A stretch of DNA of 64,000 bases from assembly GCA_963971535.1 (NCBI GenBank), contig OZ020598.1, forward strand, positions 95,966,087 to 96,030,086, written 5' to 3'. Made by a program: the position numbers and the translations under genes. This DNA is from Notolepis coatsorum (lineage: Eukaryota; Chordata; Actinopteri; Aulopiformes; Paralepididae). Below, one piece after another: positions 8,735 to 57,479 of the stretch. The notes under the pieces are model-generated. The model saw nothing but the letters and a program-made list of their open reading frames with translations, did no database searches and had not been told where the DNA came from. Position 1 is the first letter of the stretch; each line of letters opens with the position of its first letter.

Positions 8735-9031
8735 CTGGCTGTTGAAAAAGCGTGAGCACATCACCCCAGTCCTGGCCTCACTCCACTGGCTCCCCCGTCC
8801 GTGACGCATTGATTTTAAACTACTTTTAATTGTTTTTAAATCCCTAAATGGCCCACAGTACCTGACCGAGCTCCTGCGTCTCCGCACCCCATCCAGAGCC
8901 CTAAGGTCAGCCGACCAACTGCTGCTAAATGTACCCAGGTCTAGGCTCAAAACCAGAGGGGACAGAGCCTTTTCCATAGTCGCCCCTAAACTGTGGAACA
9001 GCCTCCCCTCCACATCAGGTCAGCCCAGACC
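8735..9031 (+). pseudogene. LINE (L2/CR1-type) RT C-terminal remnant
   Basis: Encodes the conserved end of a non-LTR reverse transcriptase: HITPVLASLHWLP, then a stop, RIDFKLLLIVFKSLNG, and RAFSIVAPKLWNSLP. In intact elements this region is downstream of the RT catalytic core. There is one in-frame stop near 8802 and a one-base frame change near the C run at 9004-9009, just before the amplified segment at 9032. The catalytic RT and endonuclease are missing, so it is a 5'-truncated copy. Confidence 0.8.
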
Positions 9032-18367: not shown

Positions 18368-19637
18368 GTCGAAAAGTACTTGGCGGAAAAAAATCTAATC
18401 TACGAATTCCAATCTGGCTTCAGAACGTCCCACTCCACTGACACATGCCTCCTCTATTTGAACGACCACATCAAACAAGAGGTGGACGCGGGCAAATACT
18501 GCGGCATGGTCATGCTGGACCTACAAAAGGCCTTCGACACTGTCAATCACTCCATTCTAATGGACAAGCTAAAAGCTATTGGTTTTGATAGCTTATCAGT
18601 GAGCTGGATGCAATCCTACCTGGAGGGGAGAGAACAGATGGTAGAGGTAAACGGTACTCTATCCCCCCCCCCTCACAGTGAGCTGTGGTGTTCCACAAGG
18701 AAGCATACTAGGACCGCTACTCTTCCTAATTTATGCAAATGACATGTCGTCAGCCTGTGACTGCAACTTGTTCCTGTTTGCGGACGACTCAGCCCTGCTG
18801 GTCTCTGACAAGAACAAATTGCAGGTTGAAAAAACCCTCAGCACGGAACTAGGCAAAATCTGCATATGGCTCGCTGATAACAAACTATCATTACACATGG
18901 GCAAAACAGAGTCCATTCTCTTCGGTTCAAATAACAAACTCAGCAAGACCGACGGTTTCTCAGTTACAGTGGGTGACAATATTGTCACAAGGAGAGACGA
19001 AATTACCTACCTTGGTTCCATCCTAGAGGCAAATCTTTCCTGTGACAAAATGGCATCCAATGTAATAAAAAAAGTCAACCAACGAACTAGATTCTTGTAC
19101 CGGATCTCCTCTCTGGTAAACAAGAATACCCTGAAGACTCTGGCAGGAGCACTCATTCAAGGGTACTATGACTATGCGTGCACCTCATGGTACCAAAGCA
19201 CCTCAAAGGCGCTTAAAACAAAATTACAAACATCACAAAACAAACTGGTCAGACTACTACTTGACCTGAACCCCAGAACCCACCTCACCCCTGCCCACTT
19301 TGCCAACCTAGGATGGCTTAGAGTAGACGACAGAGTACAGCAACTTGCAATGGGCCTGGTCTACAAGATACACTATACGACCGGGGTGCCCATGTACATG
19401 TCAAAATACTTCCCAAAGGTCAGTGAATACCACAACCACTACACCAGAGGAAGCTCAACAAATCATGTTAAACCCAGATTCGGCTCAAACAAAGGACTAA
19501 ACACGTTTCGCAATTATGCCACAACAATGTGGAACGCCCTACCCAAAGCTGTAAAGGAATGTGAATCCCTGCCCACATTCAAAACCGCTCTTAAAGAGCA
19601 CCTACGGGAGGCTGCAATTCGAAACTGGCCACCGTAA
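18368..19637 (+). pseudogene. LINE ORF2, 3' part: rest of reverse transcriptase
   Basis: Continuation of the interrupted LINE from 13683: VEKYLAEKNLIYEFQSGFRT, then LDLQKAFDTVNHSIL. After the C run at about 18663-18672 the frame shifts by one base, and SCGVPQGSILGPLLFLIYAN and catalytic FADD (18777-18788) follow. The C-terminal thumb-like region and the ending MWNALPKAVKECESLPTFK stop at 19635-19637. Apart from the L2 insertion and the homopolymer shift, the protein is open. Together with 11443-13683 it would form one EN-RT polyprotein. Confidence 0.85.
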
Positions 19638-21717: not shown

Positions 21718-22800
21718 TTCAGAATCAGAATCAGAATCAGAATCAGAATCAGAAAGTTATTTATTGACAAGTAGTTTTCACATACAAGGAATTTGCTTTG
21801 GTCGTTTTTGGTGCAACATTAAAGGATAACTCCACTTTTTTTTTAAATTAGCTTATTTAACATCTTCCCTGGAGTTAGACAAGAAGATGCATACCTTTTT
21901 TGTCTCTGTGCGTGCATTTTAGCTTTGGGAATAGACGCTCCGTTAGCATAGCTTAGCTTCATCACTGGAAGTGGGGGAGGACAGTAGCCTTACAGTGCCT
22001 TACAGTGTATTGCAAGGTCCGACATTGACCAAACTTGATATGCATGACCTTGGTGGGCTCTAGGTCAACTCCTGAAAAGGGGGTCAATGTCAGACTTTGC
22101 AATCAAAAGTTAGGGGGCTAATAACCCTTGCCATAATTTCAGTGCGCCCCTAACTTTTGATTGCAAGGTCTGACATTGACCCCCTTTTCAGGAGTTGACC
22201 TAGAGCCCACCAAGGTCATGCATATCAAGTTTGGTCAATGTCAGACCTTGCAATACACTGTAAGGCACTGTAAGGCTACTGTCCTCCCCCACTTCCAGTG
22301 ATGAAGCTAAGCTATGCTAACGGAGCGTCTATTCCCAAAGCTAAAATGCACGCACAGAGACAAAAAAGGTATGCATCTTCTTGTCTAAGATGTTAAATAA
22401 GCTAATTTAAAAAAAAGTGGAGTTATCCTTTAACAGACAGACAATAACGGACAGATAATCAAATAAAAAGGTGAATAAAATGAAATATGAACTAATTTAA
22501 GATAGAAGCACAATAGAATAGAATAGAATTATGAAAAAAATAGGCCAGGGCTGTACAACTGTAAAATAAAGCGGTTGAATAAAATAAAATGGGATTATTA
22601 AATAAATTAAATATAAGCACATTAATATAATACATTATAAGTAAAACATTTTAATAAGAATAGGCCAGGGCTGTACAGCTGTGCAAGATGTGGCCAGGTA
22701 TATACACTAATTATAATACAAATAACAATACAGTGTTATATAACAAGTCATTATACAACAATTGTTTCTGATTGGCCATGAGGCATACTGTAGTGAATGG
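21718..22800 (-). mobile_element. LINE 3' UTR with (TTCTGA)n tail, interrupted by a TTAA element
   Basis: Plus-strand repeated AGAATC at 21720-21752 followed by GTTATTTATTGACAAGTAG marks a minus-strand LINE 3' end. Sequence continues after the palindromic insertion (22434) with two copies of ATAGGCCAGGGCTGTACA (near 22541 and 22660). No ORF remains. Confidence 0.55.
21819..22433. mobile_element. palindromic MITE flanked by TTAA
   Basis: Arms 21819-22116 and 22147-22433 are almost perfect complements: TTAAAGGATAACTCCACTT at the left and its complement at the right, around a ~30-bp loop. TTAA at both ends fits a TTAA target duplication as made by piggyBac- or Kolobok-type transposases. No coding sequence. 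The high arm identity suggests recent origin or gene conversion. Confidence 0.85.
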
Positions 22801-25010: not shown

Positions 25011-27088
25011 ATGTAGCATAGTAAACTAGCTTATCTATTGTAGAGTGAAGCTGACCTATTGTAGAGTGAAGGTAGCATAGTAAACTAGCTGACCTATTGT
25101 AGAGTGAAGGTAGCATAGTAAACTAGCTGACCTATTGTAGAGTGAAGGTAGCATATAGTAAACTAGCTGACCTATTGTAGACTAAAGGTAGCATAGTAAA
25201 CTAGCTGACCTATTGTAGACTAAAGGTAGCATAGTAAACTAGCTTATCTATTGTAGAGTGAAGCTGACCTATTGTAGAGTGAAGGTAGCATAGTAAACTA
25301 GCTGACCTATTGTAGACTAAAGGTAGCATAGTAAACTAGCTGACCTATTGTAGACTAAAGGTAGCATAGTAAACTAGCTGACCTATTGTAGACTAAAGGT
25401 AGCATAGTAAACTAGCTGACCTATTGTAGACTAAAGGTAGCATAGTAAACTAGCTGACCTATTGTAGACTAAAGGTAGCATAGTAAACTAGCTGACCTAT
25501 TGTAGACTAAAGGTAGCATAGTAAACTAGCTGACCTATTGTAGACAAAAGGTAGCATAGTAAACTAGCTGACCTATTGTAGACTAAACCTAGCATGTAAA
25601 CTAGCTGACCTATTGTAGACTAAATGTAGCATAGTAAACTAGCTGACCTAATGTAGACTAAATGTAGCATTGTAAACTAGCTGACCTATTGTAGACTAAA
25701 CCTAGCATAGTAAACTAGCTGACCTATTGTAGACTAAAGGTAGCATAGTAAACTAGCTGACCTATTGTAGACTAAAGGTAGCATAGTAAACTAGCTGACC
25801 TATTGTAGACTAAACCTAGCATAGTAAACTAGCTGACCTATTGTAGACTAAATGTAGCATAGTAAACTAGCTGACCTATTGTAGACTAAATGTAGCATTG
25901 TAAACTAGCTTATCTATTGTAGAGTGAAGCTGACCTATTGTAGACTAAAGATGGCATAGTAAACTAGCTTATCTATTGTAGAGTAAAGGTAGCATAGTAA
26001 ACTAGCTGACCTATTGTAGACTAAAGGTAGCATTGTAAACTAGCTGACCTATTGTAGACTAAAGGTAGCATTGTAAACTAGCTGACCTATTGTAGACTAA
26101 AGGTAGCATAGTAAACTAGCTGACCTATTGTAGACTAAAGGTAGCATCGTAAACTAGCTTACCGAATGTAGACTAAAGGTAGCATAGTAAACTAGCTGAC
26201 CTATTGTAGACTAAAGGTAGCATAGTAAACTAGCTGACCTATTGTAGACTAAAGGTAGCATAGTTAACTAGCTGACCTATTGTAGACTAAAGGTAGCATA
26301 GTAAACTAGCTGACCTATTGTAGACTAAAGGTAGCATAGTAAACTAGCTGACCTATTGTAGACTAAAGGTAGCATAGTAAACTAGCTGACCTATTGTAGA
26401 CAAAAGGTAGCATAGTAAACTAGCTGACCTATTGTAGACTAAACCTAGCATGTAAACTAGCTGACCTATTGTAGACTAAATGTAGCATAGTAAACTAGCT
26501 GACCTAATGTAGACTAAATGTAGCATTGTAAACTAGCTGACCTATTGTAGACTAAACCTAGCATAGTAAACTAGCTGACCTATTGTAGACTAAAGGTAGC
26601 ATAGTAAACTAGCTGACCTATTGTAGACTAAAGGTAGCATAGTAAACTAGCTGACCTATTGTAGACTAAACCTAGCATAGTAAACTAGCTGACCTATTGT
26701 AGACAAAATGTAGCATAGTAAACTAGCTGACCTATTGTAGACTAAATGTAGCATTGTAAACTAGCTTATCTATTGTAGAGTGAAGCTGACCTATTGTAGA
26801 CTAAAGGTAGCATAGTAAACTAGCTTATCTATTGTAGAGTAAAGGTAGCATAGTAAACTAGCTGACCTATTGTAGACTAAAGGTAGCATTGTAAACTAGC
26901 TGACCTATTGTAGACTAAAGGTAGCATTGTAAACTAGCTGACCTATTGTAGACTAAAGGTAGCATAGTAAACTAGCTGACCTATTGTAGACTAAAGGTAG
27001 CATCGTAAACTAGCTTACCGAATGTAGACTAAAGGTAGCATAGTAAACTAGCTGACCTATTGTAGACTAAAGGTACCATAGTAAACGA
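25011..27088. repeat. 38-bp satellite with 856-bp higher-order repeat
   Basis: The monomer CTGACCTATTGTAGACTAAA...GTAGCATAGTAAACTAG is 38 bp and present about 55 times. Variant monomers (ACCTAGCATG, GACAAAAGG, TTACCGAATG, TTATCTATTGTAGAGTGAAG) recur at a fixed 856-bp offset, for example 25543/26399 and 26159/27015. That defines two adjacent higher-order copies. There is no coding potential. Confidence 0.95.
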
Positions 27089-36335: not shown

Positions 36336-36352
36336 AGCCAAGATAATACAGA

Positions 36353-37406
36353 GTTAGCTAGGCTAATAACGAATTATTACGAATAGGCTAATAAATAGAA
36401 TATAATTGCTTAGCTAATCGTTTAGCTCTCCCTCCACCACCGGTCCCAGCCAAGCCAAGTCCCTTCACCCTAGCAGCTAGGAAGGATGACAGAGGATAGG
36501 GTGAACGAGTGTCACATTGTTGTCAAAGGCCTGCACCCTTTCTCTACAGTGGAGTCCAAGGGCTTTAGGTAACAACTAATCATTCAGTGTATATAGTTTT
36601 TTTTATCTTACATTTGTTGTTTATTATAAAAACTCTATAATTCAGACACATTTAAAACATTGTTGCTGCTGTTGCTGAAGAAATAATATTTATTTATTAT
36701 ATTTATTTATAATTTATTTATAAAGTTATAAAAGAACATTGCTGCTGCTGTTGCTGAAAAAAATAATATTTATTTATGAAGTTATAAATAATAAAGCAAT
36801 GCCGATAAAGTACTGAACCGTTAAGCAGTATCGATAAGAGTAGTAGTATCGATAACATATTTGCCTTCGGCAGACTTCAAATGAGCCATTTTAATCTAGG
36901 TTAATCTAGATTAACTCCAGGATTGCAGATAGATTAATCTAGATTAAAAAAAAGTATCTATGCCCACCTCTACTTTATACACATTTGTTTATTAACCTAA
37001 CCCTAACTATAGCCCTGACCTCAAAGCTACTACAGTTTTCAACAATATATATATTGCGATGCCGAAACAGTTGGGAGCATAATCTTCATGATAACATTGC
37101 ATAAACCTTGTCGCTTCCTGTTGCAGAGATGTTTGCTGTTTGTCGGCAACGCACCAGTGATGGCAATGCTGATGACAATGTGATGCTGATGGCAACACAA
37201 CACACTTTAGCTAATTTCTCTGAAGTTGCCTACTGCATTTACATTACATTTACTGCAGCTCTAACACCCATAGTACTGAGTGTTAAACTGTGTCTTCAGT
37301 GATATGTATAGTATCGTCTTGCACTACTTGCACACGGTCATGTGAGGCCTTACTGTCCTGGTATCACAATGAGATCTTAAATGGATATTTCACTTTAGTA
37401 TAACTT
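36353..37406. repeat. left arm of ~1.05-kb inverted repeat
   Basis: Reverse complement of 38243-39300 with only a few mismatches. It includes the hAT 3' part (to 36972), its TSD, then the TGATGGCAAC motif and a stretch ending ACTTTAGTATAACTT. Confidence 0.93.
37145..37200. repeat. TGATGGCAAC minisatellite fragment
   Basis: GGCAACGCACCAGTGATGGC and following words match 31978-32022; a mirrored copy lies at 38450-38505. Confidence 0.8.
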
Positions 37407-38242: not shown

Positions 38243-39300
38243 AAGTTATACTAAAGTGAAATATCCATTTAAGATCTCATTGTGATACCAGGACAGTAAG
38301 GCCTCACATGACCGTGTGCAAGTAGTGCAAGACGATACTATACATATCACTGAAGACACAGTTTAACACTCAGTACTATGGGTGTTAGAGCTGCAGTAAA
38401 TGTAATGTAAATGCAGTAGGCAACTTCAGAGAAATTAGCTAAAGTGTGTTGTGTTGCCATCAGCATCACATTGTCATCAGCATTGCCATCACTGGTGCGT
38501 TGCCGACAAACAGCAAACATCTCTGCAACAGGAAGCGACAAGGTTTATGCAATGTTATCATGAAGATTATGCTCCCAACGGTTTCGGCATCGCAATATAT
38601 ATATTGTTGAAAACTGTAGTAGCTTTGAGGTCAGGGCTATAGTTAGGGTTAGGTTAATAAACAAATGTGTATAAAGTAGAGGTGGGCATAGATACTTTTT
38701 TTTAATCTAGATTAATCTATCTGCAATCCTGGAGTTAATCTAGATTAACCTAGATTAAAATGGCTCATTTGAAGTCTGCCGAAGGCAAATATGTTATCGA
38801 TACTACTACTCTTATCGATACTGCTTAACGGTTCAGTACTTTATCGACATTGCTTTGTTATTTATAACTTCATAAATAAATATTATTTTTTTCAGCAACA
38901 GCAGCAGCAATGTTCTTTTATAACTTTATAAATAAATTATAAATAAATAAATATAATAAATAAATATTATTTCTTCAGCAACAGCAGCAACAATGTTTTA
39001 AATGTGTCTGAATTATAGAGTTTTTATAATAAACAACAAATGTAAGATAAAAAAAACTATATACACTGAATGATTAGTTGTTACCTAAAGCCCTTGGACT
39101 CCACTGTAGAGAAAGGGTGCAGGCCTTTGACAACAATGTGACACTCGTTCACCCTATCCTCTGTCATCCTTCCTAGCTGCTAGGGTGAAGGGACTTGGCT
39201 TGGCTGGGACCGGTGGTGGAGGGAGAGCTAAACGATTAGCTAAGCAATTATATTCTATTTATTAGCCTATTCGTAATAATTCGTTATTAGCCTAGCTAAC
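38243..39300. repeat. right arm of ~1.05-kb inverted repeat
   Basis: Mirrors 36353-37406. The hAT end is at 38677 (TAGAGGTGGGC) preceded by the complement of the TSD, GTATAAAG. The hAT copy stops at 39300, before the BED exon. Confidence 0.93.
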
Positions 39301-39394
39301 TATACAATTATATTATAATTGTATTGCACCAACAGCACGCAATTATGAAGCCTTCAACATCAACACATAAGAATACTTGAACCGATCAATAAAC

Positions 39395-40581: not shown

Positions 40582-41867
40582 TGTTGTGAAGGGCCAGATT
40601 AAAAGCTGAGAATCTACGTTTATTGTTTTATATACCTTGTATATTATTTATATATACAATTTATATCCCTTTAAGCCTGCGTTTGAATCCTAGTAATATT
40701 CACTTTCCTCATTGGATAACGTTCTCGGCGCCAGACGGCGCGCCCCTAAAGTCAGGTTCAAAGGCGAGCCCAGGCATGTTGGAGCGTGCCTGGAGACGGC
40801 GCATTGATTCAAGACGAGAACTGAGGTTTGGCACTAGAAAGCTACTTAAGTATATATATCGCGGCAGGTGCGAACAGCAGTGTGCGTTCGTTCGGTAAAA
40901 CAGTGAAGTGCAAGCAGTTCGTCTAAACAGAGTGTTGAGAACCACGTGCGAAGTGAATAGTAAAAGTGTCAGAGTTAATGCAGTAACGTCAAGTTCGACT
41001 TAGCTTAATGTGAAGTAAAGAGTCGTTATTTATTGTGCATCGTGCCAACAGCAGTTTGTTCGTGTGCAGCATTACCCAGCAGTTCGTTCGTTTAGTAGCT
41101 AGTGGAACCTTAGCCAGTGTGCGTGGACTAAATACATTGGTGCCAGTACACGAGGAGGGCCTAGTCGTAGAACCTACTGGACATGTGCATATTGGAACCG
41201 ACGGCGGCGATTGCAGAACCAGTATTGGTTGGATTATAGTGATTGTGGAACGTACTACCTGGAGAAGAGCATCGTTAATACCCACTGTCGTTTGGATTTA
41301 ACCACCTTGAAGATCTACTTCGGGCTGGCTTCGTGGACCGAAGCTAGCTGGCTATCGTCATTGCTATCGGGCAATTGGATTACAGTTATTGCTTTGTTGC
41401 TGAGCCTTTGGATTACAAGGACTGGATTCTATACGAGAACCCCCTTCTTCTTCAATTGAACAGACTGAGTATCCGAACATTCTTCCTTCCTCCAGAGCTT
41501 ACATCTCTGGGAGGAAACCCCTTGTCTCAAGCGGTACCAGCGTTTCCCCCTATATTGCCATCCTACGCCAGGCGGTGTTTAGTCTAGTACCCCATCGTAG
41601 GAATTATTCATTCCAACTGACTTTTGCTACTGACTGACTTATTCATATTCTTCGCCATACAAGCGCGACCTTAATTCCCATCTCTGTACAATTTGCTGCA
41701 TAACAATAAATATTCTAAATGATATTTCTTTGTCACCGTGCCGTATTATTCTGAGTGTCTGCCATAATTAACTGTACTTTCTGGCAAGTAATAATAATGA
41801 TAATTAGCAGTGGTTTAATCTATCACAATCTTTAATACAATCAGGGTTTTGTAACCCCTCAGTTACA
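40582..41867 (+). mobile_element. BEL/Pao 5' LTR (1,286 bp)
   Basis: TG...CA ends. A TATATATA stretch near 40851-40858 precedes the GCGGCAGGTGCGAACAGCAG leader, and AATAAATATTC near 41704 may serve polyadenylation. It carries a 10-bp segment near 41744 missing from the 3' LTR. Confidence 0.92.
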
Positions 41868-41890
41868 ATTGGTCCTTCGAGCCGGAGGGT
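41868..41890 (+). promoter_or_regulatory. probable primer-binding site
   Basis: TTGGTCCTTCGAGCCGGAGG directly follows the LTR, where a tRNA primer should anneal. I could not match it to a specific tRNA 3' end. Confidence 0.4.
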
Positions 41891-41922
41891 ATCAGTAATC
41901 TTAATATCATATTAATAGTGAT

Positions 41923-42180
41923 ATGGCCAGCGGCGGACACTCTCCAAACGGCTCTCCCAAACTAGAGCGCCCTAGGCGCAAACGTCAGCCCCCTCCACAC
42001 CTGGAGGACTACGCTTTCGTTTTACCTCCTAGCTTATCTAAAAAGACTCTAAGCACGGATAAAACTGATAGTTTAAGCATGCCTAATCCTATCGACTTGT
42101 CGGCCCCACCAGTAGAGACCCCAGTGGGTTCAAACGAAACTGACTTAGCTCACGGGGGGAACAAGCGGGACATGACGTGA
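41923..42180 (+). pseudogene. BEL/Pao gag N-terminal segment (first frame)
   Basis: ATG 41923 is the first ATG after the primer site and starts a basic, proline-rich leader (PKLERPRRKRQPPPHLEDYA). The frame closes at 42178-42180. The following gag sequence is open in another frame, and the switch point lies near a six-G run at about 42154-42159. So this is the N-terminus of one broken gag-pol, not a separate gene. Confidence 0.7.
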
Positions 42181-42983
42181 CTATACCCAAAGACAGCGCC
42201 ACCGGGATAGACCCCGGAGCGCCAAAGGATAAAGACAGTGCCACCGAGATGGACCTCGGAACGCAAGAGACCCAAGAGCGCGCACCCGAGATAGACCTCG
42301 GCGCGCACCCAAGAGAAGAGTACCGCGTCTTAGAGATGGACCTCGGGGCGCGGGAGAAAGTAAGAAGCAGCGCTCGAGAGACGGACCTCGGTGCGCGTCA
42401 AGAGAACAGGTCACCACCAAGTCCTGTCAGCGCCAGATCACCCCCATCAGTGTCATCCCCCAGCGAGGCTGACCAGAGACTAGCACAAGCCTTGATCGCC
42501 ACGCTAACAGCATCAACGGAAAGAGACCGTATCCAGGGTGAGCACGACCGCCTCCAAGCGCAACAACAGAGTGCGCGCGAACAGTCTGCAGTGGAGCGCG
42601 ACCGCCTCCAAGCGCAACAACAGAGTGCGCGCGAACAGTCTGCACTGGAAAGAGAACGCATCAGACTGGAAGAGAGGCGCCTCCAGGCTGAAGAAAACAT
42701 TCAGCGAGAACGCGCCAATGCACAGCGCGAAGCGGAGCGAGACCGTCTGCAGGCGCAGATGATAGAGCAATTGATCCAGAGGGCGACCCCCCCCCTCCTC
42801 CACACGGAGCTCCCGGAGATCATCACGACACGGGTCGAGGGCACCTTCCCCTCCCCGACAAATCTACACGGGACCCAGCCAACAGGAAGAACCTGCCTAC
42901 GTCGCCGAGCCCCCTCCCCGACCGGTCTATACGGGACCCAGCCAACGGGAAGATCCCGCCTACGTTGCAGAGAAACTAACTAG
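42160..42983 (+). pseudogene. BEL/Pao gag segment (shifted frame), coiled coil
   Basis: Open in a frame one base off from both neighbours. The first half repeats SATEMDLG/EIDLGA-type units of about 14-18 residues. The second half is a charged heptad region (RDRLQAQQQSAREQSA twice, RLEERRLQAEENIQRERA), predicted to be a coiled coil. Homology switches back to the pol frame near a C run at about 42787-42796: the other frame carries YTGPSQQEEPAYVAE twice. The natural polypeptide probably passes through all three segments. Confidence 0.65.
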
Positions 42984-45900
42984 GAGACTCCAGGACCTAG
43001 CGGAGGACGAGGGAGGACATCAAGCCCACCAGCACGAACCTATTTTGGACCAGGAGGCCCAGTACAGCCCCGACTTCAGCCCAGAGCCACTGCGTTACAA
43101 ACCCCCGACCCAACCCATGGGTGAGTTTAATACACAGTCAGCACCGAGGAGCAGCACCTGGGGGCCCGGTCTCTGGTACCCACCCAGCACTAACCCACGA
43201 CCACCCGTACGGGGAGACTCGCCCAGGAGCTCTCTCCCCCTACGCGCATCTGTGTCCCAGCCATCCATGGCATCTTACCTTGGAACACCCACGTTCCCAG
43301 ACTTTACGCGTGAGGACAGAGCACAGTATACGGAACTACGCATGTGTTTAGAGACTATCATGTCCGATGTACACAACGAGTCTTATAAATATGCCATCCT
43401 CCTCAAGCACCTTAAAATGCCCAGAGCGCATAACATAGCGCTGGCATATTCGAACTCAAGAACCCCCTACTCAGATGCTCTGGTGGCCCTCGACGCGCGC
43501 TATGGACGCATATGGGATTACGTGATCCAAGAAATACGAGATATCGACCGCCTCCCCCCAGCCAAAGACAATAGAGCACTAGATGACCTCTCTATCAAGG
43601 TACAATCCCTTGTGGGGATGCTGGGGTCACAAAAGGAGAAGGGGAGATATGAACTATATGCAAATTCCAACGTGGAGCGGATACTGGAGAAGCTCCCTCC
43701 AGCCCGTCAAGAGCGTTTTCGGCGGCAGAAAGACCACCGTGACCCCCACGGCCCAGAACCATCCCTCCTAGACCTGGCTGATTTCCTCGCCAGGGAGGTC
43801 AGCAGTCTACGATTAGACACATTCGTGTGGGGTGGCTCTAACCCTAAAGATGGACCGAGGAGGTTCAATGACAACCGCCGGTCCGTGACCGTTATGCACC
43901 AGGCCGAGTCAGTGCCGCGGCACAAGAACCATAACACCCCCCCCGCGAAGGGAAAGTGGAAGATTGCCTGCCAGTATTGTGAACATGAACATTGGCTGTC
44001 TCAATGTGACACCTTTAAGAAGTTGACTGCTGACGAAGTGAGTCAGTGGATCAAAGCGAACCGCCGCTGCTTCCGCTGCGCGCGCAGCCACATGGCAGCT
44101 GAGTGCCGCCTGAAGAAAAGATGCAGCAAGTGCGACGGCGCCCACCTGGATGTCCTGCACGACAGCAACAAGAGGAGACCCGTACCACAAAGCAGCTCGA
44201 GAGTAAATGTCATGTATATAGACCCTGCGAAGAGCGGGAGCTCCCGAGTGCTCTTGAAGGTGGTCCGAGTGCTCCTAAGCTACGAGGACAAGGTCCTGGA
44301 CACTTACGCCGTCCTCGACGATGGGTCTGAAAAGACTCTCCTCCTCGCTTCCGCCGCAGCCCAGTTGGGCCTGCGGGGTACCGAAGAAACAATGACAATC
44401 CGTACTATTCGGCGAGACCTAAAGACCATAAAGGGCGAAAACGTCTCATTCACAATAGCAGCGGTCGAGCAGCCCGAGAAGCGGTACAGCATCACTAATG
44501 CCTTCACAAGCCATAACATAGGTCTGTCACGTTATACCTACCCCATCCCACAACTGATGGATAAATACGTGCACCTACGCCGAGTGCCTATACCGTTCAT
44601 CGACGGCGCCACCCCGACCCTGCTCATAGGCTCCGACCACGCAGACCTCATCGTCCCAACGGACGCGGTCCACATCGGACCCAGAGGCTGCCCAGCCGCG
44701 GTCAAGACCCGCCTGGGTTGGACGCTACAAGGCCCCCTCTCCGGGTCTTCCAACCGACCGACGGCCACACGCTGCCTCTACACGAGGGTAAGCGACAACG
44801 ACACCACCCTCTTGCAGCACGTCGAGAGACTATGGACATTAGACTCGATGCCCTTCAAGAACGAACGGAAACTAGTTCGCTCCAAGGAAGACAAGTATGC
44901 CATAGCTCTCCTCGAGCAGAAGACAAAGAGGGTCGAGGTCGACGGAGTGATGAGATACGCAACTCCACTCTTGAGGCGAGAGGGGATGCCCACCCTCCAC
45001 GCATCAAAGGAAGCGACACAACGCTATCTACTGAACACCGAGCGGCGTCTAGCTAAAGACCCCCCTCAAGCAACGATATACCGCGCTGAGATCGACAAAC
45101 TGATCACAGTGGGACATATAAAGAAAATCGACAATCAAGAGGCAGACCAGACGACTGAATCCTGGTACGTGCCCCATAACAAGGTCCACCACAACGGCAA
45201 GAACCGCATTGTATTCAACTGCAGTTATCAGATCGGACTACAGAACCTGAATAACTTGCTCCTACCCGGCCCGACACTCGGCCCCTCCCTCCTCGGCGTA
45301 CTACTACGTTTCCGCCAGGACAAAGTAGCCATCAGCGGCGACATCAAAGGGATGTTCCTACAAGTGCGACTGATGGAGGAAGACAAGCCCCTGCTGCGGT
45401 TCCTGTGGAGAGAGAGGATCGACGATGAACAACCCTCCATCTATCAATGGGAGGTCCTCCCCTTCGGCACCACCTGCAGCCCATGCTGCGCCACGTTCGC
45501 ACTACAAAAGCACGTGACCGAAGACCCTGGAGCCGATGAGGAGGTCAGACAAAGCGTAGAGAGGAGTTTCTACGTGGACAACTGCCTACAAAGCGTATCA
45601 ACGCCAGAAGAAGCCGAAGCCATCCTGCTTAAGCTCCGAGCCTCCCTGATCAAAGGCGGCTTCGACCTTAGGCAATGGGCCAGCAGTGACCCTCAAGTAC
45701 TTTGCAGCCTCTCCCCAGAGACAAAGGCAGCAAGCAGCGAGACCTGGATGGCGACCACCCCAGGTGAAGCACAGGAAATGCCATTGGGCCTCGTCTGGCG
45801 CTTCAAAACAGACTCGCTCCATTATAAGCACACACCCCTGACCAAGGAGCAGGGAAGGTCGACCCCTCTACCGACCACTCGACGGAGCGTATACAGAACA

Positions 45901-48177
45901 CTCGCAAAGCCAATACGACCCGCTGGGGTGTATCCTACTGTACCTTACACCACTCGGGCGAAGATGTTGGTGCGAGAACTGTGGGACAAGGAGCAGGGGT
46001 GGGACGACCCCATACCCGAGCACCTGGCTTCCACCTGGAGAGAGTGGGAGGGAGAACTCAACTCGCTCCAAAATGTGAACATTCGCCGGAGCTACTTCCC
46101 ACCCACCATGCGGCTGGAGACGTGTCAGATGGACCTGCACGTCTTCAGTGACGCCTCAGAAGTAGCTTACGGTTCGGTGGCTTACTTGAGAGCCCGAGAG
46201 GAGGGAGGAGAAGTACACACAGCCTTCGTCCTGGCTCGCTCAAGAATAGCCCCCCGCAAGCAAAAATCTATCCCGCGTCTAGAGCTCTGCGCAGCTCTGG
46301 TAGGCGCGCAACTCGCCACGCTGATACAACGTGAACTCACCATAACGGTGCGAAAGACAATCCTGTGGTCAGACTCCATGACTGTGCTCACATGGATCCA
46401 GTCCGATTCTTGTCGATACAAAGTCTTCGTCGGAGTCCGAGTCACCGAGATTCAAGACTTGGTAGGATCAGCGTGCTGGGGTTACGTTGACACCAAACAG
46501 AACCCAGCAGATGTCATCACACGGGGGATGTCCCTAGACGACCTCACACGTCCAAACATTTACAGTGACGGTCCTGAGTTCCTCAAGCTCACGGAGGAGG
46601 AGTGGCCTACCCCCACACCACGGGAGGCGAGTCAAGAGGAGGCAGAGATCAAGAAGTCTATGTTCTGCGGGCTGACGCACGCCCCAGCTCCAACGGACCC
46701 TAACATAGACGACTGCTTAACCCTTGAGAGTGCTCAGAAAAGGACATTCTTGTGGCACCACCCTGAGGTTCCCCCCACCACAGACATTGACGCATCGAAC
46801 TACGCAGAGGCAGCACTCCTTCTGCTACAGAGAGCCCAAAGAGACTCATTTCCAGACGAGCTAGACTGCCTGCAAGGGGGAAAGCCAATCCCCTCAGACA
46901 GCCGACTGCTCACTTTGGCCCCCGAGCTCGACACCAAGCACCTCATCAGGGTGGGTGGTCGTTTGAGACGGGCCCCGGACTTGACGGATGATGTCAAGCA
47001 TCCTATCGTCCTCAACAGCAGACACAAGATAACCGAGCTGATCATACAGAAGTACGACGAGGATGTGTACCACGCGGGGGCAGAGAGAGTCTTCGCTGAG
47101 ATCCGACGACGCTACTGGAAACTCCAAGGGAGAGAAGCAGTACGTCGCTTCCAACGGACTTGCTTAAACTGTCGCAAGTGGCGAGCACAGCCCAGTATAC
47201 CTATGATGGCCTCCCTGCCTCCCTGCCGCCTCCGACTCGGCGAGAAGGCCTTCCACTCCACGGGCGTGGACTGCTTCGGCCCATTCAACGTCAAGAAAGG
47301 AAGAGGGACAGAGAAGAGGTGGGGCATTGTGTACAAGTGTATGACCACCCGAGCTGTTCATATAGAAATCCTTCAGACCATGAGTACGGATTCATTCCTC
47401 ATGTCCTTCCGGAGATTTCAAGCCTGAAGAGGAATCCCGTCTGTGTTGTTGTCCGATCAAGGGACAAACTTCAAAGGCGGAGAAAGATAATTGAGAGAGA
47501 GCTTCCAGGCTATGGGTGAAGGACTTAAGACCCGCCTCGCTCCCTCTCAGATCAAATTCCAGTTCAACCCCCCGAACGCCCCTCATTTCGGGGGAGCCTG
47601 GGAAAGAGAAGTCCGTTCTATAAAGACTGCTCTGTACACCGTGCTTGGGGCCCAGACCGTGGCGGAAGAAGTCCTCACGACAGTCCTCACGGAGATCGAG
47701 GGCGTCTTGAACTCGAAGCCCCTCGGCTACGTCTCAAGTGATGTAGCAGACTTCGACCCAGTCACCCCAAACTATCTCTTGATGGGGCGGCTGGACCCTG
47801 CCCTTCCACAGGCGGTGTACAGACCTGAGGAGGTGAACGGCCGAAGAATGTGGAGATACAGTCAGGTATTGGCTGACCAGTTTTGGACCAGTTTCCTCCT
47901 CCACTATCTACCATCCCTCCAAGCCCGTCAGAAGTGGGTAAAGGACAGGGACAACCTGAAGGTGGACACAGTCGTTATGATCATAGACCAGTCACTACCC
48001 CGAGCTACGTGGCCGGCCGGACGCGTAAGCAAAGTGATTACTGGTGCCGATGGGAAAGTCAGAGCGGCAGAAGTCATAGTCCAAGGGCGGACTTACACCC
48101 GACCCGTGGCGAAGCTGATAGAGTTGCCGGAGCTCCCTGACTCCCCTGATGACGACCATGACCCACTGACTTTGTAG
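42766..48177 (+). pseudogene. BEL/Pao gag-pol polyprotein with two nonsense codons
   Basis: The frame is open from about 42766; the long part is 43045-47427, then 47428-48177 after stops. In order: DUF1759-like gag (ETIMSDVHNESYKYAILLKH), zinc knuckles (CQYCEHEHWLSQC, CFRCARSHMAAEC, CSKCDGAH), aspartic protease (AVLDDGSEKT, about 44317), RT (GDIKGMFLQVRL, LPFGTTCSPCCATF, YVDN at 45571-45582), RNase H (HVFSDASEVAYGSVAY), and integrase with H2C2 finger (CLNC at 47161-47172) and D-D-E at about 47269, 47455 and 47602. TGA at 47425-47427 and TAA at 47488-47490 interrupt integrase; both are substitutions in an otherwise continuous frame. YVDN replaces the usual YVDD. Confidence 0.92.
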
Positions 48178-48258
48178 ATTGCCCTACTCCTCACAACAAG
48201 TATTGAGCAGTTGACTGGACTATTAATCTGTCTCCCTTAAACTAATTAGGTGCGGACT

Positions 48259-48272
48259 AATTAGGAGGCGGC
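48259..48272 (+). promoter_or_regulatory. probable polypurine tract
   Basis: The short purine-rich AGGAGGCGG directly upstream of the 3' LTR is where plus-strand DNA synthesis would be primed. Confidence 0.45.
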
Positions 48273-49547
48273 TGTTGTGAAGGGCCAGATTAAAAGCTGA
48301 GAATCTACGTTTATTGTTTTATATACCTTGTATATTATTTATATATACAATTTATATCCCTTTAAGCCTGCGTTTGAATCCTAGTAATATTCACTTTCTC
48401 ATTGGATAACGTTCTCGGCGCCAGACGGCGCGCCCCTAAAGTCAGGTTCAAAGGCGAGCCCAGGCATGTTGGAGCATGCCTGGAGACGGCGCATTGATTC
48501 GAGATGAGAACTGAGGTTTGGCACTAGAAAGCCACTTAAGTATATATATCGCGGCAGGTGCGAACAGCAGTGTGCGTTCGTTCGGTAAAACAGTGAAGTG
48601 CAAGCAGTTCGTCTAAACAGAGTGTTGAGAACCACGTGCGAAGTGAATAGTAAAAGTGTCAGAGTTAATGCAGTAACGTCAAGTTCGACTTAGCTTAATG
48701 TGAAGTAAAGAGTCGTTATTTATTGTGCATCGTGCCAACAGCAGTTCGTTCGTGTGCAGCATTACCCAGCAGTTCGTTCGTTTAGTAGCTAGTGGAACCT
48801 TAGCCAGTGTGCGTGGACTAAATACATTGGTGCCAGTACACGAGGAGGGCCTAGTCGTAGAACCTACTGGACATGTGCATATTGAAACCGACGGCGGCGA
48901 TTGCAGAACCAGTATTGGTTGGATTATAGTGATTGTGGAACGTACTACCTGGAGAAGAGCATCGTTAATACCCACTGTCGTTTGGATTTACCCACCTTGA
49001 AGATCTACTTCGGGCTGGCTTCGTGGACCGAAGCTAGCTGGCTATCGTCATTGCTATCGGGCAATTGGATTACAGTTATTGCTTTGTTGCTGAGCCTTTG
49101 GATTACAAGGACTGGATTCTATACGAGAACCCCCTTCTTCTTCAATTGAACAGACTGAGTATCCGAACATTCTTCCTTCCTCCAGAGCTTACATCTCTGG
49201 GAGGAAACCCCTTGTCTCCAGCGGTACCAGCGTTTCCCCCTATATTGCCATCCTACGCCAGGCGGCGTTTAGTCTAGTACCCCATCGTAGGAATTATTCA
49301 TTCCAACTGACTTTTGCTACTGACTGACTTATTCATATTCTTCGCCATACAAGCGCGACCTTAATTCCCATCTCTGTACAATTTGCTGCATAACAATAAA
49401 TATTCTAAATGATATTTCTTTGTCACCGTGCCGAGTGTCTGCCATAATTAACTGTACTTTCTGGCAAGTAATAATAATGATAATTAGCAGTGGTTTAATC
49501 TATCACAATCTTTAATACAGTCAGGGTTTTGTAACCCCTCAGTTACA
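48273..49547 (+). mobile_element. BEL/Pao 3' LTR (1,275 bp)
   Basis: Nearly identical to 40582-41867. Differences seen include a missing C near 48399, the lost 10-bp segment near 49434, and about ten scattered substitutions. Confidence 0.92.
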
Positions 49548-49587
49548 ATAATAAAAAGGCATGTCACCAGGACACCTCTCCTGAGAG

Positions 49588-51718: not shown

Positions 51719-51749
51719 GTTAACCCTTTCACTACCACACTACCGAAGG
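51719..51749. repeat. GTTAACCCTTTCACTACCACA minisatellite, left remnant
   Basis: One unit (TTAACCCTTTCACTACCACA) directly left of the DIRS element; the array continues at 57214. Confidence 0.8.
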
Positions 51750-51923
51750 GTTATATTTCGTATTTGCATCGCGTCCCGCTCTGAGCCTTACGAGATACTC
51801 TGTGATACATATTGTATCTCCCACGAATAAAAAAACACATGCACCCCACCTGTATGGGGCCCCGCCCCTAATGGTGGCCACCACCCATATAACCATGACT
51901 CTGGTCATGAAACACCCTTCCTC
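51750..51923 (+). repeat. DIRS left terminal repeat
   Basis: Begins GTTATATTTCGTATTTGCAT. From 51772 it is the reverse complement of 57016-57166, with a one-base difference in an A run. The outer 22 bp are unique to this end. Confidence 0.92.
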
Positions 51924-53479
51924 TGTTTTCGTCCCAGCGTATTGGATGCGTGCACCATACGAGTCTAGCGGAATGAAAAGATTAAGGAAGATTAATAATG
52001 TTGGAAGCTTACCGGAGGTTGCTGGCCCCTGGCATCTTCGATGCATGTTTTCGGCGACACGACGGGCCTGTGTTGATGTTCCTCGTTTGATGACTGCACA
52101 TCGAGGTTCAGCTGTACAAGGCTGGCTGTCGGGCCAGCTTGTACTCAGGTAGGCCCTGTGTCTTCAGGCATGGGTATTAGTGTTAGTAATGCTGGTTTGT
52201 TTTGTTAACACAACCATGTTGTGTGTTGGCGCCGGGGGCAGGATGGTTTGGTGAACGTTCTCTGCAGGGAACGGTTTCCAAGCTGTCTTGGGCGTGCTGC
52301 TAAAACATCTGAAGCTATGCTACATGCTATCGCTACTGCCGCATGCTATTACTACTGCTAATTGCTATGCTGTTTTAATGTCTCCGCCGTGAGATGTTGT
52401 CACTCTCCCGCCTCTTGCCCGGTTCATCAATGAAGGTCAGTCGGTAGCTGTTGTGGGGTTTTTGAGTTCTATTTACCTTTTTTCGGGTAAATGGGTTGAC
52501 AACGGGGTAGGTCGTGGCTAGGTTCCTAGCCAGGTATTTTACCTTGTGTTCCGGCGGGGTTTGTTGAACGGTGTTCCCATCTGGGTTGACGTCGGGTAGT
52601 GGGGCTATGGGTCCAGCCGACATGATAAACATGTTGCGTGTCTGTGCACAGGCAATTGTTGTCTTGGGTCCCACATTGCCTGGCGTTAGGCTGCAGTAGT
52701 ATAAGGGCAGGGCCGCCTGGGAGAAATGTGAGGCCCTGTGCGTTTTTAGACGCGAGGCCCCCCATCTCCTGGGGCGGCCCTGTGTAGGGGGCTATTGTTT
52801 CGTTTTGTCACTCTGCTATGAGAAGGTCTGTCTTGCTACAGCTTTCTCTCCTCTCAAACCATTCATACTGACGGTCAATCGGTATACTGGGGGAGTAGTG
52901 CGGGGGGGGGGGGGCTTTGTTTACCTTTTTTGGTAAATGGGCTAAACAAGGGCTGGTGTTCTGTTGTGAATATTTTGAATGAAGACGGGTCTGGTCCGTC
53001 TCCCCTTAAACTTTGTGTGTATGGGTTTGCTCATTCTACAGTTTTTGTGGTTTAGCTCTTTTATTCATTTAACCCTTTCATGGTGCACACCACAGTGGAG
53101 GGTGCTGTTTGCAATCACCACTGGTGCTCCATGTTAACGTCAGTCCTTTGTTTTTGATATATTGAAACAATGCCCCGCCCGGCCGACACCATGGGTGGGT
53201 CGGCCTGGCGAGTGGCTGGTGGGCTGTTAAGGCTTGTACCGCCACGGTATGGAATTGGCAACGATTAGAACTGTGTTCGAATTGGTGTTTTTTCTATTAA
53301 AGAAATGGTGTCTGGTGGAGGGGCCTTGAGGGCCAGCCGACGTCGACACATCGCGCGAGGTTGTTGACGTTATTAGCTTTGACCCAGCCGCAAGCTATAA
53401 CCGCTCAGGGTTCCCCTCTCCGCAGGGGATTTTGGTCTTCTGCTGGAGCGCGGGCGGTATTGTCCTAGGCCCTACACCG

Positions 53480-53920
53480 CCTCACACCGCGCAGCCAGAA
53501 TAAGAGAGAGCACGGCCTCGTCAGCGGCGATGACGGGGCCCTCGACAGGCGGCCATGTTTTTCCCCCGCCAGAGGTATCCTGGGCGTTGATTCGACAGGT
53601 GTCCACAAGGCCGACAGCCTTGGCGGCCGAGGGATCGGCCATGTAGGATGGGTTCGGCTTGAACAAACAAGCCGTCACCGTCCTGCCGCGAGCAGCCCGC
53701 TCTCCGATCACTCCCTTCCCCAACACCAGCGGGAGAAGTGGGCTCTGATTGTTTCCTTTGGCTGCGGGCCGCGTGCCTTCGTTGATGCGCGGGCGGCCCC
53801 ACTTTTCGCTTCTCATGGGGACAGGGGCTGACACCCAGTTGATGGCTGAGCCTGGGTCTGTCCGTGAGAATGTTGTGCTGTCAAGCGGCTCCCACACCTT
53901 GAACTGTGTTGGTTGAGCCT
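53480..53920 (+). pseudogene. possible DIRS gag-like remnant
   Basis: No domain is recognised. The plus-strand reading is broken by stops, and its position between the left terminal repeat and RT is where DIRS ORF1 would be. The open minus-strand frame across it (53472-53897) is likely a shadow. Assignment is by position only. Confidence 0.25.
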
Positions 53921-54461
53921 GGTGTTACGTCTGTCAACTTAAGTGTTGTCAGCAGGGGGGCTCGAAACCTTTTGAGGCACACAGTGCGGGCTTCCCCGGC
54001 CTCGCCTTCGCCAGGCCAGGTATCATGTTGGTGCCTCCCACTCCTGAAATATTGGCAAGTGGTCGCAGCTCACATGGTTTGGGGTGGTAGTAATATCACT
54101 GCAGGGCTACGGTGTGTAGGAACCCATGGGGGCCTTACACCTTGCATGTCCGGCTGCAGAACAACTCCTTCAGCATGTTCTGGAGGGGTGTTCAGTGGGG
54201 GGGCTTTTTTCATCGGAAGCCCCCCGTATCAGATCGGCCCTTTCTGTCGGGGTTCCCCCTTGGGTGCGATTGCCTCGTGGGTGTGTCAGGGTCAGGTGTT
54301 CCGACACGGAACGCGCTCCTCGCATGGTTCCGGGGTTGTCTACGCACAGCGGGGGGACCGGGCCAACTATCTACAGTTCCTGGCGGACCTGCGCCACGTG
54401 ACGGCGGGTGCGTTGGGAGTGTCGTCACATATGACTACGGCAGTACCATATGTCGAGGTAG

Positions 54462-54960
54462 ATGGAGAGAACGGTGAGGCGGGGACTTGTGTTTACACAA
54501 CCCCACCCGTTTTCAGGTTTGGTACAGACCCTGTTGTCGGGGTCTCCAGCAGGGACAGCTCTGGTCGACGAGATCCAATCTCTGTGGACGAAGCAAGCCA
54601 TCGTCGTGGCGTTCTCCTCCCGGTGTTCTCAGCCCGAGAAGTCGGGAGGGAGGGGTGTAAGACCCAGGCTGGACCTGTCCCATGGGAAGGTTCAGCATTT
54701 TTTGGATCGTCTCCTACCTGTTGAACACTGTCAGGTGGGGGTCTGGTTCTCCTCCATAGACCTGTAGGATGCGTATGCGCATCCCCGATCTTCCATCCTA
54801 GGGCTTACCTACGCTTCCTTTGCAGGGTTAGCGTATGAGTACCAGAGGCTGCCGTTCGGTTTTCTCTGGCTCCCTGCATCTTCACCAAGTGCGTGGAGGC
54901 CGCACTGGGGCCTTTGCGTCGTCCGGGGTTACGGAGTGTTCTGCCCTGATGACGTTCTGG
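54462..54960 (+). pseudogene. DIRS reverse transcriptase remnant
   Basis: Readable blocks: PFSGLVQTLLSGSPAGTALV, DEIQSLWTKQAIVV, RPRLDLS, VWFSSIDL-stop-DAYAHP, LAYEYQRLPFGFS, CIFTKCVEAALGPLR and DDVLVL. These correspond in order to DIRS RT fingers and palm, including the two aspartates of the catalytic box (DDVLVL instead of the usual LDDW). At least one stop (TAG at 54765-54767) and two frame changes disable it. A stretch between the first blocks seems deleted compared with family length. Confidence 0.82.
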
Positions 54961-55640
54961 TCCTTCGCGGTCAAGGTGGATCGTCAGGTCTCATACCAGG
55001 CAGGTCTCTACCAGCCTGGGGTTGCTGTAGACTGGATGTAGAGTATTCCTCTTCCCAGTCAACGGTTGGAGGGCTATGGGCATCCATTTCAGAGCGTGTT
55101 GTCAACACGCTCGGGAGGTTCCGTCCTAGGACGGTTACGGCGCTGTCTCACGTCGCGTTTTCACCGACGCCTCCCTCGCTGGTGATGCGTCGGGCCAACG
55201 CAGTAGGGGGCAGCTGGCAAACCATGCTGCCCGGTCTGCGCTACGTTCAATGTGTTGGTGTTGAAAGCGGTCCTTCTGGTCCACAAATGGTGTTGATCAG
55301 GACGGACGTTACGACGTCAGTGCCGTGTATCGACAGACAGGGAGGAGTACGCTCCCCCTGTCTGCACCAGGCGGCGGGCGGCTGGCTATGGGCGTCCTCC
55401 ATCTGCGCGGCCTGAGGGCTCCCCACATCCCCGGCAGGGAGAATGTGGGTGCAGGTGTACTGTCGCGGGGCGGCCCTCATCCTGACGGGTGAGGATTGCG
55501 TCTGGACATGGCCAGGCGGGTCTGGGACCGATGCCGTGCCACCAGGGATTCTTCCCCATACATCTGTTAGGTCAGTTGTTGGGACGGGTACGTTGAGGGG
55601 CGCAGGTTCTTGATCCTGATGGTGTTACCATCTGGAATGC
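54960..55640 (+). pseudogene. DIRS RNase H / methyltransferase-region remnant
   Basis: Follows RT. Fragments such as VNTLGRFRPRTVTALSHVAF and NAVGGSW resemble the RNase H portion of DIRS pol, but stops break it. No clear methyltransferase was seen. Confidence 0.5.
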
Positions 55641-55682
55641 GCATGCTCCCTCCACTGTCGCGCTTACGCGGGCAGATGACGT

Positions 55683-56635
55683 ATGTTCCAAGTGTGGTGT
55701 AAGGTGGGGGGCCGGGACTCAGTCTCCTGCCCCCTGGATGCTGTCCTTAGTTACCTCCAGTCTCTCCTTGATAGACTGTCGGCTTCGACGGTGAGGGTAT
55801 ATGCAGCAGCTATATCCTCCTATCATGAGGGGTTTGAGGCGATGTCTTGTTCAGCCACCCTCTTGTGAAGCGTTTCCTGCTTGGCGCTCGACGCGTTAAG
55901 CCGGTGCAACGCTCCTTGGCTCCGACTTGGGATCTTCAATTGGTCCTCGGTCGGTTGTCCTTGGCCCCGTTTGAGCCGCTCGAGCGGGCGCCGTTGGGAC
56001 AGCTGTCCTTCAGGACCGCGTTCCTTCTGGCTGTCACTTCCGCTAAACGCGTAGGTGAGCTCTGTGCTCTCTCGGTACGTCCAGATTGCTTTTGTCTTTT
56101 CGGACCGATTGCGGTGTCACTCTGCGACCTGATCCTGCTTTCGTGCCTGAGAATATCCGGAGTTCCTTCCGCTCCCGGGATATTGTGGTTCAGGCGTTTC
56201 ATCCTCCTCCTCACACTAGTGAGTTAGATGCGGGCCTTCACCTGTCATGTCCAGTCCGTGCTTGGGGATTTACCTCAGCCGTACTCAGGATTTCAGGGTT
56301 ACCGACCAGCTTTTTGTCTGTTACGGTGGGGCTTGTGCTGGTAAGGCACTGTCGGAGCAGCGTCTGTCCCATTGGTTGTGCGAGGGTGTTGCCCTCTGCT
56401 ACACGCTGGCTGGGCAGGATCCCCCTGGGGGCATCAGGGCGCACTCCACTCGTGGGGTGGCTGCCTCTGCCGCTCTCCTGGGTGGGGCCTCGGTGGAGGC
56501 CATCTGTGCTGCAGCTTCATGGTCCTCCCCGGGCTCCTTTGTAAGGTTTTACCTCATGGACATGACCGGGGGTTCTGTCTCCCAGGCGGTTCTGGGGTCT
56601 GTGGCCTTTCCTGCTTCCCGTCCTTTGGTCGGGTA
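55683..56635 (+). pseudogene. DIRS tyrosine recombinase remnant
   Basis: Three overlapping frames together give one recombinase: LSASTVRVYAAAISSYHEGF, WDLQLVLGRLSLAPFEPLER, LLAVTSAKRVGELCALSV, then DIVVQAFHPPPHTSELDAG, RLSHWLCEGVALCYTLAGQD, RAHSTRGVAASAALLGG (about 56432-56480) and FVRFYLMDM (about 56538-56560). The KRVGEL arginine, the HSTR motif and the nucleophile tyrosine in VRFY are all still visible. This enzyme inserts the circular cDNA of DIRS elements by site-specific recombination. At least two frameshifts break it. Confidence 0.88.
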
Positions 56636-56861
56636 GCAGGAGTGTGTGGGTATTGGCCACAGTGTGTTGGGTCACACGTGGTTCCGCCTGTACGGTGTGT
56701 TCAAGGGGTTCTAGCTCTCTCTTGTTCGCATTCAGGTGGAGTTGACTGCGCCCCCCCTTCATTAGGAAGGATGGGGTGACAGGGCTCCCCGCACCCCTTG
56801 ATGTGGGCTTACGGGTCCTCAGGGGGTACATCTGTCGGGTCTCGCGCCCGCTCTTCCCCAT

Positions 56862-56964
56862 TATCTCGTAAGGCTCAGAGCGGGACGCGATGCAAATACG
56901 AAATATAACGAAAGGTTATGTAGATAACCTAGTTATATTAGTATTGGCTGAGCGTCCCGCTCTG
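56862..56964 (+). repeat. DIRS internal complementary region (ICR)
   Basis: 56862-56909 is the reverse complement of the left end (51750-51797). 56906-56964 is the reverse complement of the right end (57155-57213). The two overlap by TAAC at 56906-56909. That is the template structure DIRS elements use to join and circularise their ends. Confidence 0.95.
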
Positions 56965-57015
56965 CGCGCCCTGAGTTCCCTCTTGAGGGATCTTTTCCTG
57001 GGACGGGTTTTTGGC

Positions 57016-57213
57016 GAGGAAGGGTGTTTCATGACCAGAGTCATGGTTATATGGGTGGTGGCCACCATTAGGGGCGGGGCCCCATACAGGTGGGGTGCAT
57101 GTGTTTTTTATTCGTGGGAGATACAATATGTATCACAGAGTATCTCGTAAGGCTCAGAGCGGGACGCTCAGCCAATACTAATATAACTAGGTTATCTACA
57201 TAACCTTTCGTTA
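57016..57213 (-). repeat. DIRS right terminal repeat
   Basis: 57016-57166 pairs with the left repeat. The outer 57167-57213 (TCAGCCAATACTAATATAAC...CTTTCGTTA) is unique to this end and is mirrored in the ICR. Confidence 0.92.
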
Positions 57214-57475
57214 ACGCTTTCACTGCGACAATACAGCATGTTAACCATTTCGCTGCCACACGACAAAGGGTTAACCCTTTCACTACCACACTACAGAAGG
57301 TTCCGTCTGTATAGTGTGGTAGTGAACGGGTTAACCTTCTCTAATGTGGTAGTGAAAGGGTTAACAATAAAATAAAACTCATTTGGAAACCCTTTCACTA
57401 CCACATTACATCATGTTAACCCTTTCACTACCACACTAAAAAAGGTGAATCCTTTCACTACCACACTACAGACGG
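57214..57475. repeat. GTTAACCCTTTCACTACCACA minisatellite, right part
   Basis: Units TTAACCCTTTCACTACCACA occur in both orientations (for example 57269-57290, 57316-57340, 57342-57364, 57418-57440). The array flanks the DIRS element on both sides. Confidence 0.88.
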
Positions 57476-57479
57476 TTAC

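Follow-up and report, generated by a model that had tools for sequence, protein, structure and literature searches.

How does a transposable element whose genes are broken come to have ends that are almost perfect, and by what means did it reach its present place? This question is raised by a DIRS1-like element of Notolepis coatsorum, located at positions 51750-57213 of a stretch of 64,000 nucleotides (the window) that corresponds to positions 95,966,087 to 96,030,086 of contig OZ020598.1 (assembly GCA_963971535.1). A preliminary description, made from the letters of the window alone, had recognised a DIRS element with decayed coding parts and an internal complementary region (ICR) from which the template for circularisation could be read directly. 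Comparison with other copies in the same genome suggests, with an estimated probability of about 0.83, that the element belongs to a dead DIRS lineage that was mobilised in trans and that exchanged its ends with a coding DIRS family.

The anatomy of the element is indeed DIRS1-like: inverted terminal repeats with a divergent and a conserved part, an ICR that spans the junction of the two ends, a right extension, NTT-type ends and no target-site duplication (Table 1). The ICR had been described as the complement of both ends joined via TAAC, and this was found to be exact: 56862-56964 equals, at all 103 positions, the reverse complement of 57155-57213 joined to 51754-51797, a match whose length puts it beyond chance. 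Both element ends bear GTTA and the two halves of the ICR overlap on TAAC only. The inverted terminal repeats (51750-51923 and 57016-57187) differ by 5 substitutions and 1 gap in the first 21 bases, while the conserved part of 153 bases shows a single indel, located in an A-run. The right extension of 26 bases is without a left counterpart and is complementary only to the right part of the ICR. When the flanks are joined, GTTA recurs at 30, 61, 91 and 121, which restores the period of the flanking 30-base repeat and indicates that the bounds of the element are right and that insertion was precise. This target repeat, TTAACCCTTTCACTACCACACTA, is present around the element (51719-51749 and 57210-57478) in both orientations around TTAA, an arrangement that we assume to be like piggyBac-type ends; another copy of the element (L034) is inserted in a similar repeat. 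The right terminal region (57016-57213), taken as RNA, folds better than 200 of 200 shuffled sequences (z -3.5).

Table 1 Features of the DIRS1-like element and its flanks (positions in the window)
Feature	Position	Strand	Basis
Whole DIRS1-like element, 5464 bp	51750-57213	+	Ends, ICR, rebuilt empty site, 20 further copies with identical bounds
Left inverted terminal repeat; divergent part is the first 21 bases	51750-51923	+	
Right inverted terminal repeat	57016-57187	+	
ICR, left part; complement of 51750-51797 (48/48)	56862-56909	+	
ICR, right part; complement of 57155-57213 (59/59), overlaps the left part on TAAC	56906-56964	+	
Right extension; final 4 bases are the exchange tetranucleotide	57188-57213	+	
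Left flank; one unit of the 30-base target repeat	51719-51749	+	
Right flank; target repeat units in both orientations	57210-57478	.	
Left segment common to coding relative L070 (4 differences in 254; 3 against L071), then sharp drop	51750-52003	+	
Right segment identical to L070 (558/558); holds ICR and right terminal repeat	56655-57212	+	
Upstream region, gag side by position, no recognised domain; large indels vary its length among copies	51924-54460	+	
Reverse transcriptase, broken; stop in frame at 54765, one frame change or more	54561-54980	+	Weak RVT_1
Presumed RNase H-side pol pieces, broken	55157-55534	+	Position and motifs
Presumed tyrosine-recombinase frame, broken; four pieces with frame changes between them	55737-56636	+	Position, motif

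The pol and recombinase regions of the window copy are scattered across several frames. A codon model required 7 stops and 1 frameshift in 2172 bases of the coding part. An element at 40582-49549, which from its open reading frame (ORF) we take to be of the BEL/Pao family, served as control for assembly quality with its stop-to-stop frame of 1550 residues (42775-47427). Its gene showed 0 lesions in an equal stretch, and 2 stops and 1 frameshift over its whole 6031 bases; this argues against poor assembly as the source of the lesions. A frame path guided by motifs contains 10 frame changes and 4 stops. The chosen frame was favoured by codon usage in 9 of 12 pieces and was matched by open frames of the coding relatives described below in 8 of 12, among which the reverse transcriptase (RT) frames 54561-54863 and 54863-54946 and the RNase H-side frames 55281-55382 and 55379-55534. 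After reading across frames, the Pfam domain RVT_1 was recognised at E 9.8e-5, below its gathering score. Pfam found no RT in the single-frame pieces, and profile and PDB searches with such pieces gave nothing useful. The region 55157-55534 we take to be the RNase H side of pol and the region 55737-56636 the tyrosine recombinase, on motifs and position; the four recombinase pieces share 89-95% residue identity with the C-terminal portion of an ORF in the coding relatives.

An age test that used the window only gave P values between 1.5e-5 and 0.16, depending on lesion count and indel ratio. Nonsense fraction and indel ratios were assumed values, and the case with 14 lesions counted unconfirmed pieces and one frame change that is not of the family. 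This test is suggestive, not decisive, and has been superseded by data on other copies. The host genome (3.42 Gb, 4787 contigs) was searched with the left end (40 scored of 2185 first-look candidates) and with a piece of the recombinase (40 scored of 1873 candidates), all scored matches being 99-100% identical, and the 20 full copies that were read come from the overlap of both match lists. The 31-base ICR junction occurs exactly at 60 places in the genome and at 0 in the reversed control. In all 20 copies the left end is identical (48/48), the right end has at most 2 mismatches and the ICR differs from the copy's own ends by 0-3 mismatches. The position of the right end, which was not a selection criterion, is the same in all 20. 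Neither of the results that were to refute the preliminary description, ICR-to-end divergence at the level of the coding region and ends of other copies at different places, was observed.

The lesions are shared as well. The presence of 10 stop codons in the 20 copies was kept in 199 of 200 cells, and ten intervals between frame anchors were equal to those of the window copy in 194 of 200. At 4559 sites not used for selection, the 21 copies show 226 singleton and 18 shared variants, which amounts to a private change of ~0.24% per copy; the variation is star-like, i.e. the spread was recent. Shared lesions combined with so little private change indicate that the genes were dead before the family spread. 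The family thus is young and non-autonomous. Its coding parts are decayed, as had been described, but the decay is not private to the window copy and was inherited by the whole family. A wider count pointed in the same direction: a word from the RT region with one codon masked was found at 3289 places with at most 1 mismatch (0 in the reversed control), and the stop was present in 98 of the first 100 listed, all 100 on one contig. A genome search with the pol read-through (121 scored of 19181 candidates) gave 130 matches, of which only one piece of 67 residues was stop-free; since nearly all matches carried stops, this search did not reach coding relatives. Several dead copies have one large internal insertion (L021, L024 and L038; 967, 1254 and 1099 bases) or deletion (L020, L022, L023 and L035; 537, 558, 416 and 238 bases), each at a different place, and these seven kept their matched ends within 3 mismatches.

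The copy data bear on two explanations in which the element had working genes. It could have been autonomous when it inserted here and have decayed since, the repeats being kept by chance or constraint, and the clean repeats and broken genes of the window copy alone fit this at first sight. However, private divergence is only ~0.24%, the stops are common to the 20 other copies, and all 10 stops were also found in each of four older, somewhat diverged dead relatives (L040-L043) and 9 of the 10 in L044, the body of which is ~92% like that of the window copy. This explanation is barely credible. Alternatively, the genes may be alive via recoding, frameshifting or splicing, which would leave the family autonomous and would account for stops and spacings that are kept in many copies and diverged relatives. 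Kept lesions would, however, also result from the copying of one dead master. Moreover, alignment with open relatives shows ~0.29 and 0.32 kb missing from the window copy at two points of the pol region (the 55000 and 55500 bins), and there are relatives that share its ends and have ordinary open frames, which makes living genes in this family very unlikely.

Insertion sites of the copies are informative about the mode of spread. All 21 copies have GTTA as their left tetranucleotide, whereas the right one varies (GTTA in 14, GTTT in 3, GGTC in 2, GCTA and GTTC in 1 each). Copies were selected by their left end, yet eight copies chosen by their pol region also start with GTTATAT. Two copies, L021 and L031, have tandem arrays as targets, and their flanks contain the joined site (with GTTT or GGTC) 17 and 19 times. 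As the empty site with the target's own tetranucleotide recurs there, the right four bases in these copies are target-derived. The earlier observation of GTTA at both ends thus stands for the window copy, with the refinement that at least two members of the family received their right-hand tetranucleotide from the target. In some entries of Table 3 in PMC3266345 the second base of the right end is not that of the left (CTT/CAT, TTT/TGT, GTT/GAT), and the variable right tetranucleotides found here fit such differences. It might be argued that the copies multiplied by DNA duplication or gene conversion and not by transposition, as conversion could maintain a star-like near-identity. With adjoining flanks that differ and a site that reads G-N-T-N in 21 of 21 copies, and with identical element bounds in each of them, this is highly improbable.

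The preliminary description had advised a genome search for copies with the same ends and an intact pol. Elements with the same ends and long open frames do exist. A degenerate pattern derived from an RT motif, found at 2438 places (0 in the control), was the source of the coding relatives: L070 (6148 bp) was found by an RT-motif place lying between a listed left end and an ICR junction, and L071 (5607 bp) was chosen by its end-to-ICR spacing. Their left ends are identical to that of the window copy over 48/48 and their right end has one mismatch, in the last base. Stop-to-stop frames of 1155 and 977 residues in L070 and of 1618 and 668 residues in L071 overlap at length (1061-4528 and 2638-5571; 82-4938 and 1979-3985), and a full RVT_1 domain is present in both (E 1.6e-26 and 4.8e-27). 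RT_RNaseH was recognised in one L071 ORF at E 0.0099, below its cut-off. Judged by hand on end-to-ICR spacing alone, six more of the 40 left-end matches look L071-like.

On these alignments the window copy is a mosaic against L070. Identity reaches 98.4% in the 254 bp next to the left end, falls to 39-77% in 250-base bins between 52000 and 55749, and amounts to 95.9% over 55623-57212 as a whole, a stretch that includes the identical right segment (Table 1). The break points thus lie ~254 bp from the left end and ~558 and 1588 bp from the right end. In the bins at 51750, 52000 and 57000, identity between L070 and the dead relative L044 is 65-70%. The mosaic can be explained by the exchange, in one direction or the other, of one segment that runs uninterrupted through the circle junction. 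A trans-mobilised dead family whose ends match those of its partner by common descent combined with slow end evolution, and not by exchange, would also have such ends, and functional ends may well be constrained. Slow end evolution fails to explain the mosaic, however, because among dead relatives the ends are the part that changes faster. In the five dead relatives for which both were measured, left-end identity to the window copy is 99, 93, 78, 82 and 71%, against 98.8, 97.6, 95.4, 97.7 and 93.0% for the body. The window copy and the coding relative, with 98-100% identity at the ends and a much lower one in between, show the reverse. Common descent of the ends is considered unlikely.

It had further been proposed that the structural repeats stayed functional longer than the coding parts or are maintained by copying. 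For the window copy the first proposal found no clear support. Among 297 unselected sites of ICR, right repeat and extension there are 8 singletons, compared with 226 among 4559 sites elsewhere (p=0.09, a trend to fewer), and 0 shared variants, compared with 18 elsewhere (p=0.62). The raw differences from the window copy, 0-3 in ~500-525 repeat and ICR sites and 9-27 in ~2130-2174 coding-region sites, include the left repeat that itself had served to choose the copies. The repeats are clean because the copies are young. Maintenance by copying was borne out by diverged copies. The sample consisted of seven of ten further copies fetched by their ends, plus L044; L045 gave no inverted repeats and was dropped. 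In seven diverged copies, 20 columns of the left end had changed alike with the copy's own ICR and 4 were discordant, whereas 1000 draws that paired ends with ICRs of other copies gave a mean of 2.2 alike and 39.0 discordant, and at most 6 alike. This count does not contain an eighth copy, C8a; if it is included, the left ends have 24 columns alike and 11 discordant, of which C8a accounts for 7 discordant ones. For the right ends of five complete copies, counted by eye, 9 columns were alike and 2 discordant; the raw script totals (12 alike, 76 discordant) include columns beyond the ICR and three copies with a lost or cut right end. Such joint change of left end and ICR is the behaviour that should be expected of ends copied from an ICR template. 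In L044 (5546-5576) the right extension is seemingly lost, but a complement to such an extension persists in its ICR.

The favoured mechanism may be outlined as follows. The genes of a non-autonomous DIRS1-like family would already have been dead when it spread, the window element being a young copy. Its RNA would have been copied by enzymes from a coding DIRS family of the same genome whose ends are the same. During copying the ICR would serve as template for rejoining both ends, and a circle with a GTTA junction would form. The tyrosine recombinase of the partner could then exchange this circle into a G-N-T-N target, the left end retaining the GTTA of the element and the right end taking the four bases of the target, so that no target duplication arises. 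The dead lineage would have its partner's ends because the two families exchanged a segment across the circle junction (~254 bp from the left and ~558 bp from the right), which was joined to an older, dead centre. In this outline we infer the role of the partner proteins, the steps from RNA to circle, the timing, order and direction of the exchange, and the name of the recombinase. A further step is to regard DIRS ends as exchangeable modules, a long-lived dead lineage repeatedly having taken the ends of whichever coding DIRS family was active; the chances that this holds are about even. Since every round would rewrite the ends from the ICR, and the circle brings them side by side, a single exchange at the 3' side could re-equip a dead element with complete and self-consistent ends. 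Repeated capture of ends would also explain that the ends of the dead lineage diverge faster than the body and yet match their own ICR.

The earlier suggestion of trans-mobilisation is thus strengthened by copies with shared lesions and by end-matched relatives with open frames. Several points weigh against the favoured mechanism. Action in trans is read from the shared ends and was not observed, and only two partner-type copies were read. The 20 copies, picked from the best left-end and recombinase matches, favour young copies and intact left ends, and 3 of the 10 further copies (L058/59, L062/63 and L064/65), which had no left-end match in the fetched stretch, were dropped. An eleventh anchor spacing, located in the recombinase region, is unlike that of the window copy in all 20 copies, so that the frame change there is no family lesion. 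Four of the 12 frame pieces, among which 54948-54980 in the RT and 55157-55291 on the RNase H side, are not matched by frames of the coding relatives. The recombinase frame is without a Pfam match in the window copy as well as in the coding relatives, and PF05869, tried for the methyltransferase as a marker of coding DIRS elements, gave 0 matches in the host genome, although DIRS versions may lie outside the scope of this profile.

DIRS anatomy and the circle model are already known. GaDIRS1, GaDIRS2 and TnDIRS1a are elements of stickleback and pufferfish. The present element is like them in anatomy, and the likeness rests on that anatomy only. The closeness is apparent from the values for GaDIRS1 in Table 3 of PMC3266345 (5322 bp, ends GTT/GTT, junction AAC, divergent repeat 19, conserved repeat 148, extension 27, ICR 46-56), set against 5464 bp, GTT(A)/GTT(A), (T)AAC, 21, 153, 26 and 48-59 here. 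However, according to the parts of PMC3266345 that deal with them, these three elements were found via recognisable RT, methyltransferase and tyrosine recombinase domains, whereas the window family is dead in its coding parts and has its ends in common with a separate coding family. Dictyostelium DIRS-1 likewise has inverted terminal repeats, an ICR, a proposed circle intermediate and integration by a recombinase, and the sections on it in PMC5633606 report a circular copy as shown in one deletion strain; these sections describe no non-autonomous DIRS family with exchanged ends. The same source, in the sections concerned, regards the DIRS replication model, in which the ICR templates missing ends and a recombinase integrates a circle, as not fully proven experimentally (PMC5633606). 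Mobilisation of an element that misses an ORF by an autonomous relative is described there for TRE5-A.2, which differs in that it uses non-LTR (long terminal repeat) machinery and has no ICR-templated ends (PMC5633606). A literature search by title and opening of the abstract, with subscription journals mostly outside its reach, gave no report of dead, non-autonomous, mosaic or chimeric DIRS elements with the ends of a coding family, which is a weak negative.

The window family provides natural evidence on the DIRS model, in the joint change of ends and ICR and in precise insertion with target-derived right bases (two cases). It also indicates that DIRS end signals work in a family with broken genes. 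With thousands of RT-word places and end-matched elements with open frames in one genome, direct tests of trans-mobilisation and of the exchange of ends between DIRS elements come within reach.

Rfam (at the gathering threshold) and ARAGORN found nothing, and the queries tried in viral, prokaryotic and plasmid collections gave no relative. Exact matches to an 18-base pattern in one IMG/VR contig and two bacterial contigs (L001-L003) were taken as chance. A single-sequence fold of a recombinase piece was of low confidence (mean predicted local distance difference test, pLDDT, 46.5) and too poor for use.

The window contains other repeated sequences. The LTRs of the BEL/Pao-type element differ by 10 mismatches and 2 gaps in 1288 aligned bases. 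A long inverted repeat is formed by 36352-37406 and 38243-39301 (1059 aligned bases, 99.3%), and long self-palindromes lie at 2254-2910 (91.7%) and 21819-22433 (93.2%). Tandem arrays are located at 17064-18369 (unit of 280 bases, ~99% uniform), 25049-27086 (38 bases) and 9030-10367 (42 bases).

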